From NCBI GenBank assembly GCA_020860445.1, contig JAJBUH010000003.1:1-35518 (forward strand): a DNA stretch of 35,518 nt. The letters run 5' to 3'. Within the stretch, counting starts at the first letter, position 1. Each line of letters starts with the position of its first letter. Origin of the DNA: Bacteroidales bacterium. Lineage in GTDB: Bacteria > Bacteroidota > Bacteroidia > Bacteroidales > Muribaculaceae. The position numbers were made by a program, and so were the translations under genes. Under the pieces are notes generated by a model. It worked only from the letters and a program-made list of their open reading frames with translations. It was not told the origin of the DNA and searched no databases. Shown in pieces: positions 2,468 to 35,468 of this stretch.

Positions 2468-3496
2468 ATGGAAACATCAGATCGCACACCGCTAATAGGC
2501 CTTACCCTTGCCGAGCTGCAGCAAGTAGCTGTCGACAACGGATTGCCGCGCTTTGCCGGGGCGCAGATTGCCCAATGGCTGTATGAGAAGCGTGTGCGGT
2601 CGATCGACGAGATGACCAATCTCTCAAAGGCTGGCCGCGCTCGCCTGGCTGAGCATTACTGCGTTGGCTACGAGGAGACTAAGGCTGAGGCTCGCAGCGC
2701 TGATGGCACGGTCAAATACCTATTCAACGGCGCCGGAGGCCGCGATGTCGAGGCTGTTTTCATCCCTGACAAGGAGCGCGCCACGCTGTGCGTATCATCT
2801 CAGGCCGGCTGCAAGATGAATTGCGCATTTTGTATGACTGGGCACCAAGGATTCCACGGACAGCTCACGACCCACCAGATTCTCAATCAGATTATGGCTA
2901 TACCGCGCAGCCAAGACCTCACCAACCTGGTGTTTATGGGCATGGGCGAACCGCTCGACAACATCGATGCGGTGCTCAAAGCCATAGAGATTCTCACGGC
3001 CAAGTGGGGATTTGCCTGGAGCCCTAAGCGCATCACCGTAAGCACCATCGGCAAACTGCCCCAGTTGCAGCGACTGATCGAGGAGACCAAGGTGCATATC
3101 GCCCTGAGCGTGCACAATCCCATCAGCCAACAGCGAGCCCAGATTATGCCGGTTGAGCGAGCTTTCCCCGTGCGCAGCGTGGTGGAGATGCTCAGGCAGT
3201 ACGACTTCGCCCACCAGAGGCGCCTGTCGGTAGAATATATAATGTGGGCCGGAGAGAACGATAGCATGCGCTATGCCGACGCCTTGGCTCACCTGATGCA
3301 AGGCACAAGCGCCAGGGTGAACTTGATAAGATTTCACAGCATACCCGGCAGTGACTTGCGGCCGGCACCTATCGAGACCATGGAGGCATTTCGCGACCGC
3401 CTCAACGCCCTGGGCGTGACGGCAACCATACGCGCCAGCCGAGGCGAAGACATAATGGCCGCTTGCGGCATGCTCGCCGGGCGCCAAAAACAGTAA
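2468..3496 (+). CDS. rlmN: Dual-specificity 23S rRNA/tRNA A2503/A37 C2-methyltransferase RlmN
   Basis: A radical-SAM methyltransferase that methylates C2 of A2503 in 23S rRNA and, in characterised members, A37 of some tRNAs. The 4Fe-4S motif CxxxCxxC (CKMNCAFC, about residues 115-122 from the ATG) is present. So is the second conserved cysteine in LCVSSQ and the methyl-carrying cysteine near the C-terminus in AACGM (about residue 333). The N-terminal helical RNA-binding region begins at LTLAELQQV. The track starts at TTG 2459; I prefer the ATG three codons later, giving 342 residues, which is normal. It follows a good promoter. A 7-bp tandem repeat separates it from pdxA. Confidence 0.95.
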   Translation: METSDRTPLIGLTLAELQQVAVDNGLPRFAGAQIAQWLYEKRVRSIDEMTNLSKAGRARLAEHYCVGYEETKAEARSADGTVKYLFNGAGGRDVEAVFIPDKERATLCVSSQAGCKMNCAFCMTGHQGFHGQLTTHQILNQIMAIPRSQDLTNLVFMGMGEPLDNIDAVLKAIEILTAKWGFAWSPKRITVSTIGKLPQLQRLIEETKVHIALSVHNPISQQRAQIMPVERAFPVRSVVEMLRQYDFAHQRRLSVEYIMWAGENDSMRYADALAHLMQGTSARVNLIRFHSIPGSDLRPAPIETMEAFRDRLNALGVTATIRASRGEDIMAACGMLAGRQKQ

Positions 3497-3503
3497 TTTC
3501 TCC

Positions 3504-3531
3504 TCTTGACTTTTGACTTTTGACTTTTGAC
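3504..3531. repeat. Heptanucleotide tandem repeat (TTTTGAC)
   Basis: About four units of TTTTGAC (the first degenerate) fill the short gap between the rlmN stop and the pdxA start, ending 8 bp before the pdxA ATG. It is one of four 7-bp arrays in this window. Confidence 0.9.
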
Positions 3532-3538
3532 TGGATTA

Positions 3539-4627
3539 ATGGAACGACCAATAAGAGTGGGTATCACCCACGGTGACATAAACGGAATCGGATACGAGGT
3601 GCTGCTCAAGACCCTCGAGGATAACCGCATACTCGAACTCTGTACCCCCGTGGTTTATGGTTCGGCCAAAATTGCTGCCTTCTACCGCAAGCTGCTCGAT
3701 TTTCCACAGGTGCCCTTCACTCAGGTGAAGAGCGGCGAGGAGATTGTCGACGGAGTAAACAATATTATAAATGTGGTAGGCGAGGATGTCAAGGTTGAGC
3801 CGGGCACATCGTCAGAGGTCGGAGGCCAAGCCGCTTTTGCCAGCTTGGAGCGCGCCGTGGCTGACCTGAAGGATGGCCATATCGACGTGCTGGTGACTTC
3901 GCCAATCAACAAGCGCAACATACAGAGCGAGAATTTCAAATTCCCCGGCCACACCGAATACCTCGAGGCCACCATCGGTGATGGCAGCCAAGCGTTGATG
4001 GTGCTGTGCGCCAAAGACCTGCGCGTAGCATTGGTCACCACTCACCTGCCCATCAAGGATGTGCCAGCGGCTATCACCAAGGAGGAGATTCTCAACAAGC
4101 TGAGAATCTTCAACCGTTCGCTCATCCGCGACTTCGGCATCGAGGCTCCGCGCATCGCTGTGCTGTCGCTTAATCCACACGCTGGCGAAGACGGACTGCT
4201 CGGCACGGAGGAGAAAGACATTATCATTCCCGCCATTGAAGAGGCCAAGCAGCAAGGCATCCTGGCATTCGGGCCTTATGCCCCCGATGGTTTCTTCGGC
4301 GCGGGCCGGTTTGTGAAATTTGACGGCATCTTGGCTATGTATCACGACCAGGGCCTGGCACCGTTCAAGGCTCTCGCTATGGATGCCGGCGTCAACTTCA
4401 CAGCTGGTCTGCCTTATGTGCGTACATCGCCCGACCATGGCACTGGTTACGACATCACCGGCCGAGGCGAGGCCTCGCCCGAATCGATGCGCGAAGCCAT
4501 CTATTCCGCCATCGACATCTTCCGCAATCGCAAGCGCGAAGACGAATGCCGCAAGCGCCCCCTGCGCAAGCAATATGTGGCCAAGGGCCAAGACAATGTA
4601 GTGCTTGACTTGACCAAGGAACAGTGA
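3539..4627 (+). CDS. pdxA: 4-hydroxythreonine-4-phosphate dehydrogenase PdxA
   Basis: A cytoplasmic NAD-dependent, metal-binding dehydrogenase of the DXP-dependent pyridoxal 5'-phosphate pathway. It oxidises 4-phosphohydroxy-L-threonine. The N-terminus GITHGDINGIGYEV is the Bacteroidetes form of the family signature. The metal-binding histidine motifs are all visible in order: FPGHTEYL, SLNPHAGEDG and MYHDQGLAPFK. The tail DHGTGYDITGRGEASP is also typical. The ORF track starts at TTG 3527, but the ATG at 3539 starts right before the signature and gives a 362-residue protein, close to family length. It follows rlmN by 42 bp, and the TGA stop lies at the edge of the next 7-bp repeat. Confidence 0.95.
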   Translation: MERPIRVGITHGDINGIGYEVLLKTLEDNRILELCTPVVYGSAKIAAFYRKLLDFPQVPFTQVKSGEEIVDGVNNIINVVGEDVKVEPGTSSEVGGQAAFASLERAVADLKDGHIDVLVTSPINKRNIQSENFKFPGHTEYLEATIGDGSQALMVLCAKDLRVALVTTHLPIKDVPAAITKEEILNKLRIFNRSLIRDFGIEAPRIAVLSLNPHAGEDGLLGTEEKDIIIPAIEEAKQQGILAFGPYAPDGFFGAGRFVKFDGILAMYHDQGLAPFKALAMDAGVNFTAGLPYVRTSPDHGTGYDITGRGEASPESMREAIYSAIDIFRNRKREDECRKRPLRKQYVAKGQDNVVLDLTKEQ

Positions 4628-4633
4628 ATAACT

Positions 4634-4682
4634 AATAGTGAATAGTGAATAGTGAATAGTGAATAGTGAATAGTGAATAGTG
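4634..4682. repeat. Heptanucleotide tandem repeat (AATAGTG)x7
   Basis: Seven perfect copies of AATAGTG begin a few bases after the pdxA stop codon. The stop itself lies in a repeat-like sequence (CAGTGAATA). The array is followed by the 12-bp palindrome CCATCCGGATGG (4691-4702), which also occurs in the 31.8 kb and 35.4 kb elements. Copy number is likely to vary between strains. Confidence 0.95.
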
Positions 4683-4744
4683 AATAACGGCCATCCGGAT
4701 GGCACCTTATCACTTATAATAACTTATAGTTTATACCTAACATC

Positions 4745-6400
4745 ATGAAATATGGAATCATAGCAGCCGGAGAGGGGTCGCGCCTACAGCAAGAGGGCGT
4801 GGCACTGCCCAAGCCGCTCGTCGAGCTCGACGGGAGGCCGATGATCCGCCGCTTGATTGACATATTCCTCAATTGCGGAGCCGAAGAGATTTGCGTCATC
4901 GTGAATCAGGAGATGCGCGAGGTGCAAGACTACCTGCGCTCGCTGCAGTTGCCGGTGCCGCTGCGCATAGCGGTGCAAAGCACTCCAAGCTCGATGCACA
5001 GCATGGGTGTGCTTGCCCCTTGGCTGAGAGGCGGACGATTTGTGCTGGCTACGGTCGACACGATTTTCTCTGAGGCTGACCTGCGCGCATACGTCGAGGC
5101 TTTCAATGCCGACACTGAGGCCGATGGCATGATGGGTGTGACCGATTATGTCGATGACGAGAAGCCGCTCTATGTGGGTGTAGACGCGCAGGGTTGGATT
5201 CAGTCATTTGACGACGCTCCCAATGGCAGTCCTTATATCTCGGCAGGCATCTACGGTTTGGACGATCGAGCCATAGATGTTCTTGAGGAATGCCTGGCAT
5301 CGGGCGCAAGTCGCATGCGCAATTTCCAGCGAGCATTGCTCGCCGCTGGCCTCAAACTCAAGGCCAAGCCTTTTGGCAAGGTGATCGACGTGGACCATGC
5401 ATCGGACACCGCCATGGCTAAGGCTCTCATCAATGAAAACACAAATAACCATACTAATACCATAACTGATACCAAAACACTTAGAACCTTTATGCAACAC
5501 ATTAAGGATTTCAACGAACTGGAGCAGGCTCTGATCCAGAAAGGCGAGCGCAAACGCGCCGCCATCGTATGGGCCCAGGATGCCACAACGCGCGCTGCCG
5601 CAGCTCGCGCATTGGAGAAGGGTCTGATTGAGGCCATCTTCTGTGGCTGCCGCGCCGAAATCGAGGCCGACGAGGCTCTCATGGCCCATAAAGACCATAT
5701 CACAATCGTAGACGCCGCCGATGGCGACGACGCAGCCGCTAAGGCTGTGGCAATGGCTCGCCGCGACGAGGTGGATCTGATTGTGAAGGGCATGCTCAAT
5801 ACTGACAACATACTGCGCGCCGTGCTCAACAAGGAGCAGGGCATCTTCGAGAAGGGCTCGGTGCTGACTCACCTCACCGCCGCATCTATCCCGGCTTATG
5901 GCAAGCTGCTGATGCTCACCGACGTGGCCGTGATTCCTTACCCCAACGATGAGCAGCGCGTGGCACAGGTGCGTTACGCCCTCGATGCCCTCCACGCTTT
6001 GGGTATAGAAAAACCCAAAGTGGCTCTGATCCACTGCTCAGAGAAGGTTGATGCCCGCCACTTCCCATTCACCGGCCATTACCAGACTCTCAAGGAACAG
6101 GCTGCGGCTGGCGAATTTGGCGAATGCGTCATCGATGGGCCGTATGACGTGAAGGTGGCTTGCAGCGAGGCCGCTATGAAAAAGAAACATATAGAGTCGC
6201 CTCTCGAGGGCTATAGCGATGCGCTGATATTCCCCGACATCGAGGCTGGAAACACATTCTATAAGACTATCACTCTGTTTGCCGGAGCCGACATGGCGGG
6301 TTGGGTGGTAGGCGCCAAGGTGCCAATCATGGTGCCAAGTCGAGGAGACAGCGTAGACTCAAAGTACCACAGTCTGCTCATGGCAATCCTCAACGCCTAA
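4745..6400 (+). CDS. Fusion: sugar-phosphate nucleotidyltransferase + phosphate butyryltransferase
   Basis: A 551-residue ORF made of two proteins. Residues 1 to about 230 are an NTP-transferase domain: GIIAAGEGSRLQQ is the nucleotide-binding signature, with LPKPLVELDGRPM following and a central TVDTIF aspartate segment. Residues 250-551 are a complete phosphate acetyl/butyryltransferase (Ptb) domain beginning at an internal Met (ATG at 5492) with MQHIKDFNELEQAL, then LIVKGMLNTDNILRAVL. Ptb interconverts acyl-CoA and acyl-phosphate and pairs with Buk, encoded next. The join (NENTNNHTNTITDTKTLRTF) is Asn/Thr-rich and its DNA is AT-rich, like the intergenic spacers nearby. It is either a true bifunctional protein, a recent loss of the stop between two genes, or internal initiation at 5492 yields a separate Ptb. 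The nucleotidyltransferase substrate is unknown. Confidence 0.85.
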   Translation: MKYGIIAAGEGSRLQQEGVALPKPLVELDGRPMIRRLIDIFLNCGAEEICVIVNQEMREVQDYLRSLQLPVPLRIAVQSTPSSMHSMGVLAPWLRGGRFVLATVDTIFSEADLRAYVEAFNADTEADGMMGVTDYVDDEKPLYVGVDAQGWIQSFDDAPNGSPYISAGIYGLDDRAIDVLEECLASGASRMRNFQRALLAAGLKLKAKPFGKVIDVDHASDTAMAKALINENTNNHTNTITDTKTLRTFMQHIKDFNELEQALIQKGERKRAAIVWAQDATTRAAAARALEKGLIEAIFCGCRAEIEADEALMAHKDHITIVDAADGDDAAAKAVAMARRDEVDLIVKGMLNTDNILRAVLNKEQGIFEKGSVLTHLTAASIPAYGKLLMLTDVAVIPYPNDEQRVAQVRYALDALHALGIEKPKVALIHCSEKVDARHFPFTGHYQTLKEQAAAGEFGECVIDGPYDVKVACSEAAMKKKHIESPLEGYSDALIFPDIEAGNTFYKTITLFAGADMAGWVVGAKVPIMVPSRGDSVDSKYHSLLMAILNA

Positions 6401-6435
6401 TTACTTATTACTCATTACTTATTACTTTATACTTA
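6401..6435. repeat. Degenerate heptanucleotide tandem repeat (TTACTTA)
   Basis: Five 7-bp units (TTACTTA, TTACTCA, TTACTTA, TTACTTT, ATACTTA) follow immediately after the TAA of the fusion gene and run to within 5 bp of the buk ATG. Confidence 0.85.
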
Positions 6436-6440
6436 ACCTT

Positions 6441-7532
6441 ATGCGTATATTAGCTATTAACCCTGGAAGCACCAGCACTAAGATTGCTGTCTATGAAGAC
6501 ACCAAGCCTCTGTTCGTCAAGTCGATATCGCACTCGGCAGAAGACCTCAGCATATTTAACAAGGTATCCGACCAATACGGATTCCGCAAGCAGCTCATCA
6601 AGGATGTGCTTGCTGACAATGGATACAATCTGGCCGACTTTGACGCCGTGATCGGACGTGGTCCGCTCTCCAAGCCTGTCGAGGGTGGCGTGTATGTCGT
6701 CACCGACGATATGGTCCACGAGGCCAAGGAGGCAGAGCACCAGCACGCTTGCGACCTGGGCTGCATCCTGGCTTTCGACATCGCCTCTGAAATTCCGGGC
6801 AGCATCAGCCTTATGGCCGACCCTGGCGTGGTCGACGAGTTGTGCCCTTATGCTCGCATTAGCGGCAGCCCGCTCATGCCTCGCATTGCTATCTGGCATG
6901 CCCTCAACCAGCGAGCCATCGCTCGTCGCTACGCCAAGTCAATTGGCAAGAAATACAAGGATCTCAACCTGATCATCTGCCACCTGGGCGGAGGTATCTC
7001 GGTTGCCGCTCACGAGCGCGGTCGCGCCATCGACACCAACAATGCTCTCGACGGCGAGGGTCCCTTCTCGCCCGAACGCGCCGGCACACTGCCTTCGGCC
7101 GACTTGATCAAACTGTGCTACAGCGGCAAGTACACTCAAGAGCAGCTGCTCAAGCGTGTGGCTGGCCAGGCTGGCTTGGCTGCTCACCTTGGCACCACCG
7201 ACATGCGCGAAATCCTGCGCCGCATCGAGGCTGGCGACAAGCACGCCGAGCTCATCGTCAACGCTATGATCTACCATATCGCCAAATACATCGCTGCCGA
7301 GGGAGCAGTGCTCTGCGGCGACGTTGATGCCATCCTGCTCACTGGCGGCATCGCCTACAGCGACTATGTGGTCAATCGCCTGAAGCGCCGTGTCGAGTTC
7401 CTCGCTCCAGTCCATGTCTTCCCCGGCGAAGACGAGATGGAGGCCCTGGCCCTCAACGCCCTGGCTGTCCTCCGTGGCGAGGTCCAAGTGAAAAGCTACA
7501 CCCAGCTCGACCAAGAGCCCATAGTGCAATAA
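6441..7532 (+). CDS. buk: Butyrate kinase
   Basis: A 363-residue acetate/butyrate kinase-family (ASKHA fold) enzyme. It makes ATP from acyl-phosphate and ADP, releasing butyrate or a branched short-chain acid. The N-terminal phosphate motif NPGSTSTK, the central ICHLGGGISVAAH and the C-terminal LLTGGIAYS are intact, and the length is normal for Buk. It lies 40 bp after the Ptb domain, so Ptb and Buk form the usual two-step acyl-CoA to acid plus ATP module. No butyryl-CoA synthesis genes are present here, so the natural substrate could be butyryl-, isobutyryl- or isovaleryl-phosphate. A strong terminator follows. Confidence 0.94.
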   Translation: MRILAINPGSTSTKIAVYEDTKPLFVKSISHSAEDLSIFNKVSDQYGFRKQLIKDVLADNGYNLADFDAVIGRGPLSKPVEGGVYVVTDDMVHEAKEAEHQHACDLGCILAFDIASEIPGSISLMADPGVVDELCPYARISGSPLMPRIAIWHALNQRAIARRYAKSIGKKYKDLNLIICHLGGGISVAAHERGRAIDTNNALDGEGPFSPERAGTLPSADLIKLCYSGKYTQEQLLKRVAGQAGLAAHLGTTDMREILRRIEAGDKHAELIVNAMIYHIAKYIAAEGAVLCGDVDAILLTGGIAYSDYVVNRLKRRVEFLAPVHVFPGEDEMEALALNALAVLRGEVQVKSYTQLDQEPIVQ

Positions 7533-8955: not shown

Positions 8956-9295
8956 CCAAAGAGTGTAATTAGGGTTCAAATTAAAATTAAGCTTCATTCT
9001 CGGGTATACCCGGATGACAACCCCTACGGGGTAGCCATCCGGGCGACCTCCATATTTAACTTCTAATTGGACTCTTACTTCTCAGGGGAATTTAACGGAA
9101 ATGAAGTCTATGGATTTTCTCGGCCATGGGGCCAGAGTAGGGGTAGGGTAGCGAATCATAGGGAGCCGGTGCGGAAGTTGGTTACGGGCTTGTGGGAAAT
9201 TGAATGTCTCCAACTCAATAGAAGCTTGCCGCATCGCCACCTCCTTAGGCCTGTTGTGATAATTCCTAATCAAAAATGTAAATCAGTGATAGATA
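8956..9295. other. Intergenic region with one palindromic repeat
   Basis: A 340-bp gap before the LuxR-type gene. It contains one hairpin-like repeat (9017-9043, core ACCCCTACGGGGTAGCCATC) of the same family as the four copies at 28.8-29.0 kb. The two short ORFs drawn here have no recognisable protein features. I see no RNA gene. Confidence 0.6.
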
Positions 9296-25188: not shown

Positions 25189-25239
25189 ATTTTAAATTTA
25201 AAATAAGAGACTAAACCACCGATTTCCACTGATTCCTTA

Positions 25240-25274
25240 TTTTTCATTTTTCATTTTTCATTTTTCATTTTTCA
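25240..25274. repeat. Heptanucleotide tandem repeat (TTTTTCA)x5
   Basis: Five perfect 7-bp units plus degenerate flanks. On the coding (minus) strand the unit is TGAAAAA, and the first unit supplies the TGA stop of the BtuG-like gene. The array fills most of the 83-bp gap to the next gene. Confidence 0.95.
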
Positions 25275-26417
25275 TTCTTCATTTTCCTCGACTGGCACAG
25301 CCAGGATATGGGCTGGGTTGATATATACCTTTTGAGGCGAGAATATCTGCGTGCCCGCTGGGGTGTAGCCATAGAGGTATCCGGCTGTAGCGTAGCTGCG
25401 CGCATCGGTGAAGTAGAGATTCTGGGTGTAGGGCGACACATAGATGTCGTAGGGACTCTGTAGCGAGGCTATCAAGTCGGTAATTTCTTGGGTATAGATG
25501 ATGTCGGAGATGCTGAGGGTAGCGGGGTTGATGGTATGGATGTCATACTTATACTCGTAGGTGATGTATGAGAAAGCCGCGCCCACGGTGTAGAAGAGTT
25601 GGCCATCGCTTGTGCTGGCAGTAGATGGAAAGTCGAGTACAGTAAATTCATCGGTGTCGCAATTGAGTATGATTGTGGCTGGCTCGACATAATAATAGTC
25701 GCCTCCCGAATTGATGCACAGGTATTGTCCGGCCTGGGCCATGCCGCCGTAGAGGTTGATATGGCCGGTGTCGATAGTTTTGATCGACTGCATCGTGGCG
25801 GCATCGACCACCTGCACCGTGGTCTCGTAAGCATGATCCTCAGAATACCCATAGCCGCCGCTGTTGGCCACGTATAGCTTGCCGTTGTACAGTTTGATTC
25901 CCTCTGGCTCCCAACCGACCTCGCAGGTTGCCACTACATTCTTTGTGGCAACGTCGATCTTGGCGACATAGCCTTTCTCAAATGTCTGGTCGCCGCATAT
26001 ATGGGCATAGCTGGTCAGATAGATGTATTCGCCGTCGGTGCACATCTTGCGATTGTTGGGCACCTTCTCGGTGGCTCCGCAGGCAGTGCCGTCAGGGTGG
26101 ATGTATTGCACGATATTGCTCCAGTTTACGGCAATGGCAATCAGTGTGTCGTTGACCTGGATTATGTCGTTGGGAGTGTCGCCGAGCTTGTAGCCGTTGA
26201 CTTGCCTAAACCATTGGTTGGTCAGTACGCCAGTGGTTGAGTCATAGTACGATAGTTGTCCGTTGTCGCTCTGCCAGTTGCCTTCGTTGCACACGATGAC
26301 ATTTTCGCCAGTGAGCGTGGGCTCCGGCGTAGGCGTAGACGGTTCATCTTTGTCGCTGGAACAACCAGCGACAAGGACCCCGAGGATGGTCATGAGGGTA
26401 TAAGTGCGTTTGTCCAT
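25272..26417 (-). CDS. btuG: BtuG-like surface beta-propeller lipoprotein
   Basis: A 381-residue lipoprotein: LGVLVAGC gives the lipobox (Cys19), followed by SSDKDEP, an acidic stretch that in Bacteroidetes directs lipoproteins to the outer surface. The mature part is a YncE/DUF5074-type beta-propeller with repeated blades (YIYLTSYAH, VAKIDVATKNVVATCEVG, PEGIKLYNGKLYVANSGGYGY, VQVVDAATMQSIKTID, PYDIYVSPYTQNLYFTDARSY). BtuG proteins are propeller lipoproteins that bind cobalamin very tightly and cap BtuB. Here the gene follows btuB by 12 bp under a cobalamin riboswitch, which strongly supports that assignment. The 7-bp repeat begins at its stop codon. Confidence 0.85.
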   Translation of the reverse strand: MDKRTYTLMTILGVLVAGCSSDKDEPSTPTPEPTLTGENVIVCNEGNWQSDNGQLSYYDSTTGVLTNQWFRQVNGYKLGDTPNDIIQVNDTLIAIAVNWSNIVQYIHPDGTACGATEKVPNNRKMCTDGEYIYLTSYAHICGDQTFEKGYVAKIDVATKNVVATCEVGWEPEGIKLYNGKLYVANSGGYGYSEDHAYETTVQVVDAATMQSIKTIDTGHINLYGGMAQAGQYLCINSGGDYYYVEPATIILNCDTDEFTVLDFPSTASTSDGQLFYTVGAAFSYITYEYKYDIHTINPATLSISDIIYTQEITDLIASLQSPYDIYVSPYTQNLYFTDARSYATAGYLYGYTPAGTQIFSPQKVYINPAHILAVPVEENEE

Positions 26418-31779: not shown

Positions 31780-31991
31780 ATGGATTTTAACCACAGATTT
31801 ACACAGATTTACACAGATTCCTTAGATGGTCACATTTATATTTCATAGAGCACCAGAGGTGCTGACAGATTCCCACAGACCATCCGGATGGCATCTGTGG
31901 AAATCTGTCGGCGCTACTGCGCCTCTCTGAAACGATTGATTCCCATGGCAGAATCTGTGTAAATCTGTGTAAATCTGTGGTTAAAATCCAT
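31780..31991. mobile_element. MITE-like element with 41-bp perfect terminal inverted repeats
   Basis: The ends (ATGGATTTTAACCACAGATT... and its exact complement) are perfect 41-bp inverted repeats built from ACAGATTTAC-type units. The ~130-bp interior has nested palindromes AGCACCAGAGGTGCT and CCATCCGGATGG. There is no ORF and no clear target-site duplication. It lies between the permease and ATPase genes, occupying most of their 261-bp gap. A ~115-bp inverted partial copy is at 35351-35468, and a shorter hairpin relative is at 32776-32843. It is probably a non-autonomous or REP-like element moved by a transposase encoded elsewhere. Confidence 0.82.
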
Positions 31992-32775: not shown

Positions 32776-32843
32776 AACCACAGATTTACGCAGATTTACA
32801 CAGATTCCTCCTATGGAAATCTGTGAAAATCTGTGGTTAAAAT
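32776..32843. repeat. Short hairpin relative of the MITE-like element in the regulator leader
   Basis: AACCACAGATTTACGCAGATTTACACAG... faces GAAAATCTGTGGTT, so the transcript leader can form a long hairpin. It sits between the promoter and the regulator start. An ATG at 32766 opens a 24-codon ORF through the hairpin, ending at TAA 32838, in the same frame as the regulator. This looks like an insertion into the original 5' end of the gene. Confidence 0.75.
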
Positions 32844-35350: not shown

Positions 35351-35468
35351 ATGCCATCCGGATGGTCTGTGACATCTGTCAGCACCTCTGGTGCTCTATG
35401 AAATATAAATGTGGCCACATAAGGAATCTGTGTAAATCTGTGTAAATCTGTGGTTAAAATCCATATTT
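35351..35468 (-). mobile_element. Partial inverted copy of the MITE-like element
   Basis: Reverse complement of the left ~115 bp of the 31780-31991 element, including the whole 41-bp terminal repeat (35424-35464), the AGCACCTCTGGTGCT palindrome and CCATCCGGATGG. The other end is missing or replaced by the GCCTCTCCGAGGC palindrome. It follows the histidine kinase stop. The last ~50 bp of the window hold nothing recognisable. Confidence 0.85.

Follow-up and report, generated by a model that had tools for sequence, protein, structure and literature searches.

A lineage-restricted fusion of operon neighbours joins a nucleotidyltransferase to a Ptb-like phosphotransacylase in two sister species of Muribaculaceae

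Bacterial operon neighbours can become parts of one reading frame, as at a locus in a window of 35,518 nucleotides (contig JAJBUH010000003.1, the whole stretch analysed) from a Muribaculaceae genome, here G000. The first gene of the row, which we take from family knowledge to be rlmN, is followed by pdxA, by a single uninterrupted open reading frame of 551 aa, and by buk (Table 1). The product of buk scores 503.7 bits against the butyrate kinase model TIGR02707 (cut-off 289.1). The 551-aa frame carries Pfam domains in both halves, NTP_transf_3 at residues 5-129, NTP_transferase at 5-201 and PTA_PTB at 329-547, in agreement with an earlier note that had read a nucleotidyltransferase (NTase) domain and a full-length Ptb in one frame. 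The same note had placed the expected start of a separate Ptb at the junction ATG, and the Ptb half does align from Met250 (ATG 5492) with the N-termini of free-standing Ptb proteins, e.g. MPSIKNFDEL and MNTIKNFDEL.

Table 1. Features of the NTase-Ptb locus and of related fusions (positions in the window unless a contig is named)
Feature	Position	Strand	Details
rlmN homologue (presumed), two genes upstream of NTase-Ptb	2468-3496	+	gene order common to G048, G035
pdxA, directly upstream gene	3539-4627	+	PF04166
Heptamer array GAATAGT, 9.7 copies, pdxA-NTase spacer	4619-4686	+	G012: AAAAACC array before NTase
Fused NTase-Ptb reading frame	4745-6400	+	551 aa, uninterrupted
NTase domain, residues 1-229	4745-5431	+	PF12804/PF00483
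Block identical in G000 and G012, 104 nt	5426-5529	+	linker and first Ptb codons; sequence comparison
Linker NENTNNHTNTITDTKTLRTF, residues 230-249, 20 residues, polar	5432-5491	+	60 nt, 72% A+T
Complete Ptb-like phosphotransacylase, residues 250-551 and stop	5492-6400	+	PF01515, 116.5 bits; N-terminal alignment; PDB 7vg9
Heptamer array ATTACTT, 5.1 copies, spacer before buk	6400-6435	+	another array in G012
buk, butyrate kinase, operon partner downstream of Ptb	6441-7532	+	TIGR02707
CACAGATTTA / AATCTGTGTA repeats	31792-31819, 31952-31979, 32779-32806, 32817-32835, 35425-35452		
NTase/ATP-grasp-like fusion, G081	L178 1910-3451		
NTase/CDP-alcohol phosphotransferase fusion, G096	L181 620-1897		

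The Ptb half clears the Pfam gathering cut-off of the PF01515 superfamily by a wide margin (cut-off 24) and matches the phosphate butyryltransferase of PDB 7vg9 with an E-value of 5e-46 over residues 4-300. It is called Ptb-like here because it stays under the curated cut-offs of TIGR02706 (208.9 vs 410.5) and NF004472 (223.1 vs 399). The NTase half exceeds the gathering cut-offs of PF12804 (53.5 vs 27) and PF00483 (45.8 vs 21.2). Its motifs are intact: the residues of G-x-G-S-R-L...PKP are conserved (GEGSRL...PKPL), as are VDTIF / VDVDH. The predicted fused product has a mass of about 60 kDa, and its AlphaFold model, built from two sequences, has a mean pLDDT of 33.6, too low to be informative.

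The same 551-aa fusion is present in Muribaculaceae bacterium Zag1 (G012; NWBJ01000043.1, taxid 1958821), where it is 96% identical in protein and 92.5% in DNA. Because a second species carries it, the fusion is genuine, almost certainly no assembly error and not private to one genome; since the independent assembly has the same frame, a stop is unlikely to appear on resequencing. The reading that a stop was lost through an error of sequencing or assembly, or that a pseudogene is read through, can cite the draft state of the genome (281 contigs) and five stops in one alternative frame of the linker (5434, 5446, 5455, 5467 and 5482), but it has next to no chance against the same open frame and linker in the assembly of another species, which rules out assembly error, and against dN/dS far under 1 in both halves. 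Specifically, dN is 0.025 and dS 0.286 in the NTase half (dN/dS about 0.09), with corresponding values of 0.019 and 0.351 in the Ptb half (about 0.05), ratios that indicate purifying selection on both. Of the columns that are near-invariant among relatives, 37 of 40 in the NTase and 53 of 56 in Ptb are kept in both species; the NTase departures, in one species or the other, are confined to residues 4, 102 and 113.

Beyond these two species the fusion is narrowly distributed. A full-length match was found only in G000 and G012 among 397 Muribaculaceae genomes, and, in a sample of 393 genomes from the order, only in G000. Viral contigs held no further fused copies, a search of genome contigs yielded Zag1, one partial NTase and nothing else, and a literature search found no report of an NTase-Ptb fusion, which makes this a new domain pair within what could be searched. 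The NTase gene comes after pdxA in most relatives examined. In G048 and G035 the order rlmN-pdxA-NTase-ptb-buk is the same as here, with about 61% (NTase) and 60-61% (Ptb) protein identity to the fused halves, but NTase and ptb are two genes. The NTase of G048 ends in ISSYN-TAA, 26 nt before the Ptb ATG, and that of G035 in STFQRP-TAA, 37 nt before it; in both the Ptb frame differs from that of the NTase. In a third relative, G014, the row is pdxA-ptb-buk and the NTase is missing from it. In the Ptb tree, G000 and G012 group together (100/100) within a clade that includes G048, G035 and G014 (91/92), and G046 falls outside (96/92). Both parts of the fusion are thus adjacent and separate in members of the same clade.

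These comparisons bear out the separate, stop-terminated neighbours that the earlier note had proposed to look for in relatives, and they correct its account in two respects. It had supposed the fusion to be recent, whereas a join shared by two species that differ by a dS of about 0.3 is not very recent. It had also proposed stop-codon loss; since frame is not preserved across the spacers of the split relatives, stop loss alone was probably not enough, and a small frame change is the likelier route. With separate genes in G048 and G035 and the fusion only in G000 and G012, the simplest history is a single merger, which probably took place on the stem of the latter two before the species split. 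This is a lineage-restricted fusion of operon neighbours, ordinary in its mechanism.

Comparable joins are known for both domains. A homologous N-terminal NTase is fused to an ATP-grasp-like protein in G081 and to a CDP-alcohol phosphotransferase in G096, in each case a gene that neighbours it elsewhere, so fusion of such an NTase with a neighbour has occurred more than once in the order. Those partners come from the NTase's frequent cluster, whereas the partner here is Ptb. PTA/PTB-type domains likewise form the C-terminal half of enoyl-CoA hydratase-PTA (NF006045) and malic enzyme-PTA (6zng, 9kru), which differ in having an N-terminal partner other than an NTase.

The function of the NTase half is suggested by its surroundings in other genomes. 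It lies far under every NCBIfam equivalog cut-off for MurU, RmlA, GlmU and inositol-1-phosphate cytidylyltransferase. In several Muribaculaceae and other Bacteroidales the NTase gene lies before those of an ATP-grasp-like protein (a name given by eye; Pfam gave no match) and of a CDP-alcohol phosphotransferase, and a homologue of this usual phosphotransferase partner is encoded in G000 at C274. Because of this frequent proximity, the NTase probably acts in a lipid head-group pathway as a CTP:alcohol-phosphate cytidylyltransferase. A comparable role may belong to a putative CDP-inositol NTP transferase, its function unconfirmed according to the paper, of an alternative Bacteroidetes inositol-lipid cluster (PMC9246714); it too is encoded with a CDP-alcohol phosphatidyltransferase. 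No substrate common to the NTase and Ptb activities is evident, as the earlier note had also held; the connection between them is one of position only, and linking them has no evident biochemical logic. Ptb and Buk act in sequence, the former making an acyl phosphate from which the latter makes ATP.

The linker was described in the earlier note as AT-rich and similar to the spacers before the fused gene and before buk. Its A+T content is indeed high, at a level that only 0.35% of 60-mers in a sample of the genome's coding sequence attain, and in this respect it is like the spacers; the likeness does not extend to repeat class or evolutionary behaviour. The linker holds a weak 12-bp repeat and was rejected as a local heptamer array, since the period differs and there is no turnover: both flanking spacers have been replaced between G000 and G012, while the linker has zero changes. 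Were change spread evenly along the gene, the lack of any change at the junction would have a probability of about 5e-5. Change is not uniform, however: in comparable genes, 6% of codons fall in unchanged runs of 34 codons or more, the fused gene has a second, longer identical run at 4811-4932, and some true spacers are also 95-100% identical in this species pair. For these reasons the conservation of the junction is only suggestive. Spacer identity was discarded as proof of coding, several true spacers being identical between both species, and linker identity is by the same token no proof of translation. The open frame in G012 is no independent test of frame maintenance either, because linker divergence is zero. 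No RNA structure beyond that of shuffled sequences was found in the linker (z -0.57), and no Bacteroidetes-type promoter (TTTG-N18-22-TAnnTTTG) at the junction.

Repeats of the kind that flank the fused gene are widespread in both genomes. Intergenic tandem arrays in the window lie at 3506-3532, 4619-4686, 6400-6435 and 25239-25285; in G000 and G012 such arrays, beyond di- and trinucleotides, have almost exclusively a period of 7. Unit families include AAAAGTC, AATAGTG, AAAAATG, AACTCAT and AAAAACC, and the family may differ between the two genomes at the same spacer. Three-copy ACTTTTG has 129 occurrences in G000, 127 in G012 and four in G041; 45 further genomes of the genus have none. Heptamer repeats have been seen before, as TAACTGA in Beggiatoaceae (PMC4679880). 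It is also in G000 and G012 that heptamer arrays and dispersed intergenic repeats abound, and these two genomes measure 4.1 and 4.5 Mb (1.8-2.9 Mb in the other genus members compared). Short intergenic sequences at 9017-9080, 2117-2299 and 4627-4704 recur at many places in G012 as dispersed repeats, one of them adjoining a GGCCATCCGGATGGC palindrome. Around ABC transporter and response-regulator genes, CACAGATTTA and AATCTGTGTA form 10-bp tandem repeats in opposite orientations.

The ATG at 5492 has start-like properties, in line with the earlier note. In a start-site model trained on 312 reading-frame starts of G000 (about 0.49 Mb, the first ATG of each long reading frame being taken as its start), it outscores 99.1% of the 3039 in-frame ATGs internal to reading frames, and among real starts it ranks at the 54th percentile. 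The minimum free energy around it is -4.7, close to the median of starts (-4.5) and far from that of internal ATGs (-12.4). From this ATG to 5529 no changes separate G000 from G012; at real starts of the same pair, 9% of codons 2-13 are changed, against 19% elsewhere. The start-like context and the conserved junction fit continued internal initiation at ATG 5492 and do not prove it; alternatively, the context could be a disused remnant. From these signals it is possible that the gene makes two products, the fusion and free Ptb.

Taken together, the evidence argues, with good though not full confidence, for a fusion of operon neighbours in the ancestor of two sister species in which both halves were kept and the ptb start was retained. 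The NTase gene directly before ptb-buk lost its own end, probably in the ancestor of G000 and G012 and through a small change of frame across a short spacer. The NTase frame now runs through the probable former spacer, which became the 20-residue polar linker, into the complete ptb, and both enzymes have stayed constrained as domains of one predicted protein. With the former start kept behind an A+T-rich, weakly folded leader, translation may also begin at ATG 5492 and yield free Ptb, a step for which we see the chances as evenly balanced.

A purely neutral history, in which drift fixed a tolerated join, both domains function thanks to a flexible linker and the internal start is a mere leftover, is credible although we lean against it. 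It accords with the narrow distribution, the polar linker, the lack of a shared substrate and the fusions of homologous NTases to other neighbours elsewhere, since these suggest that the short C-terminus of the NTase is easy to extend; it is at odds with a linker that has zero changes at a dS of about 0.3, where some would be expected, which is a weak test. That the gene is an obligate bifunctional enzyme, made only at full length and selected for the linkage itself, e.g. for co-localisation or fixed stoichiometry, appears unlikely. The linker protein sequence is identical in both species, both domains are constrained and phosphotransacylase domains are known as C-terminal partners (NF006045; malic enzyme), but the linker has no synonymous changes either, and selection on the protein does not account for that; moreover, the Ptb start context is kept, no pathway links the two activities and only two sister species have the fusion. 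Highly improbable is the more elaborate proposal of a two-product gene whose full NTase-Ptb and free Ptb would tie lipid head-group activation to the acyl-CoA/acyl-phosphate state, e.g. through mixed Ptb oligomers carrying a tethered NTase.

The NTase-Ptb gene provides a two-species case in which the split relatives, the probable spacer-turned-coding linker and the former start are all still visible. An early step of domain fusion becomes testable here, namely whether a young fusion still makes the free downstream protein; peptides across NENTNNHTNTITDTK would mark the fused product. The case also carries a warning, as automatic annotation may assign one function to a two-enzyme gene beside butyrate kinase. 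The fusion is a real yet modest evolutionary curiosity.
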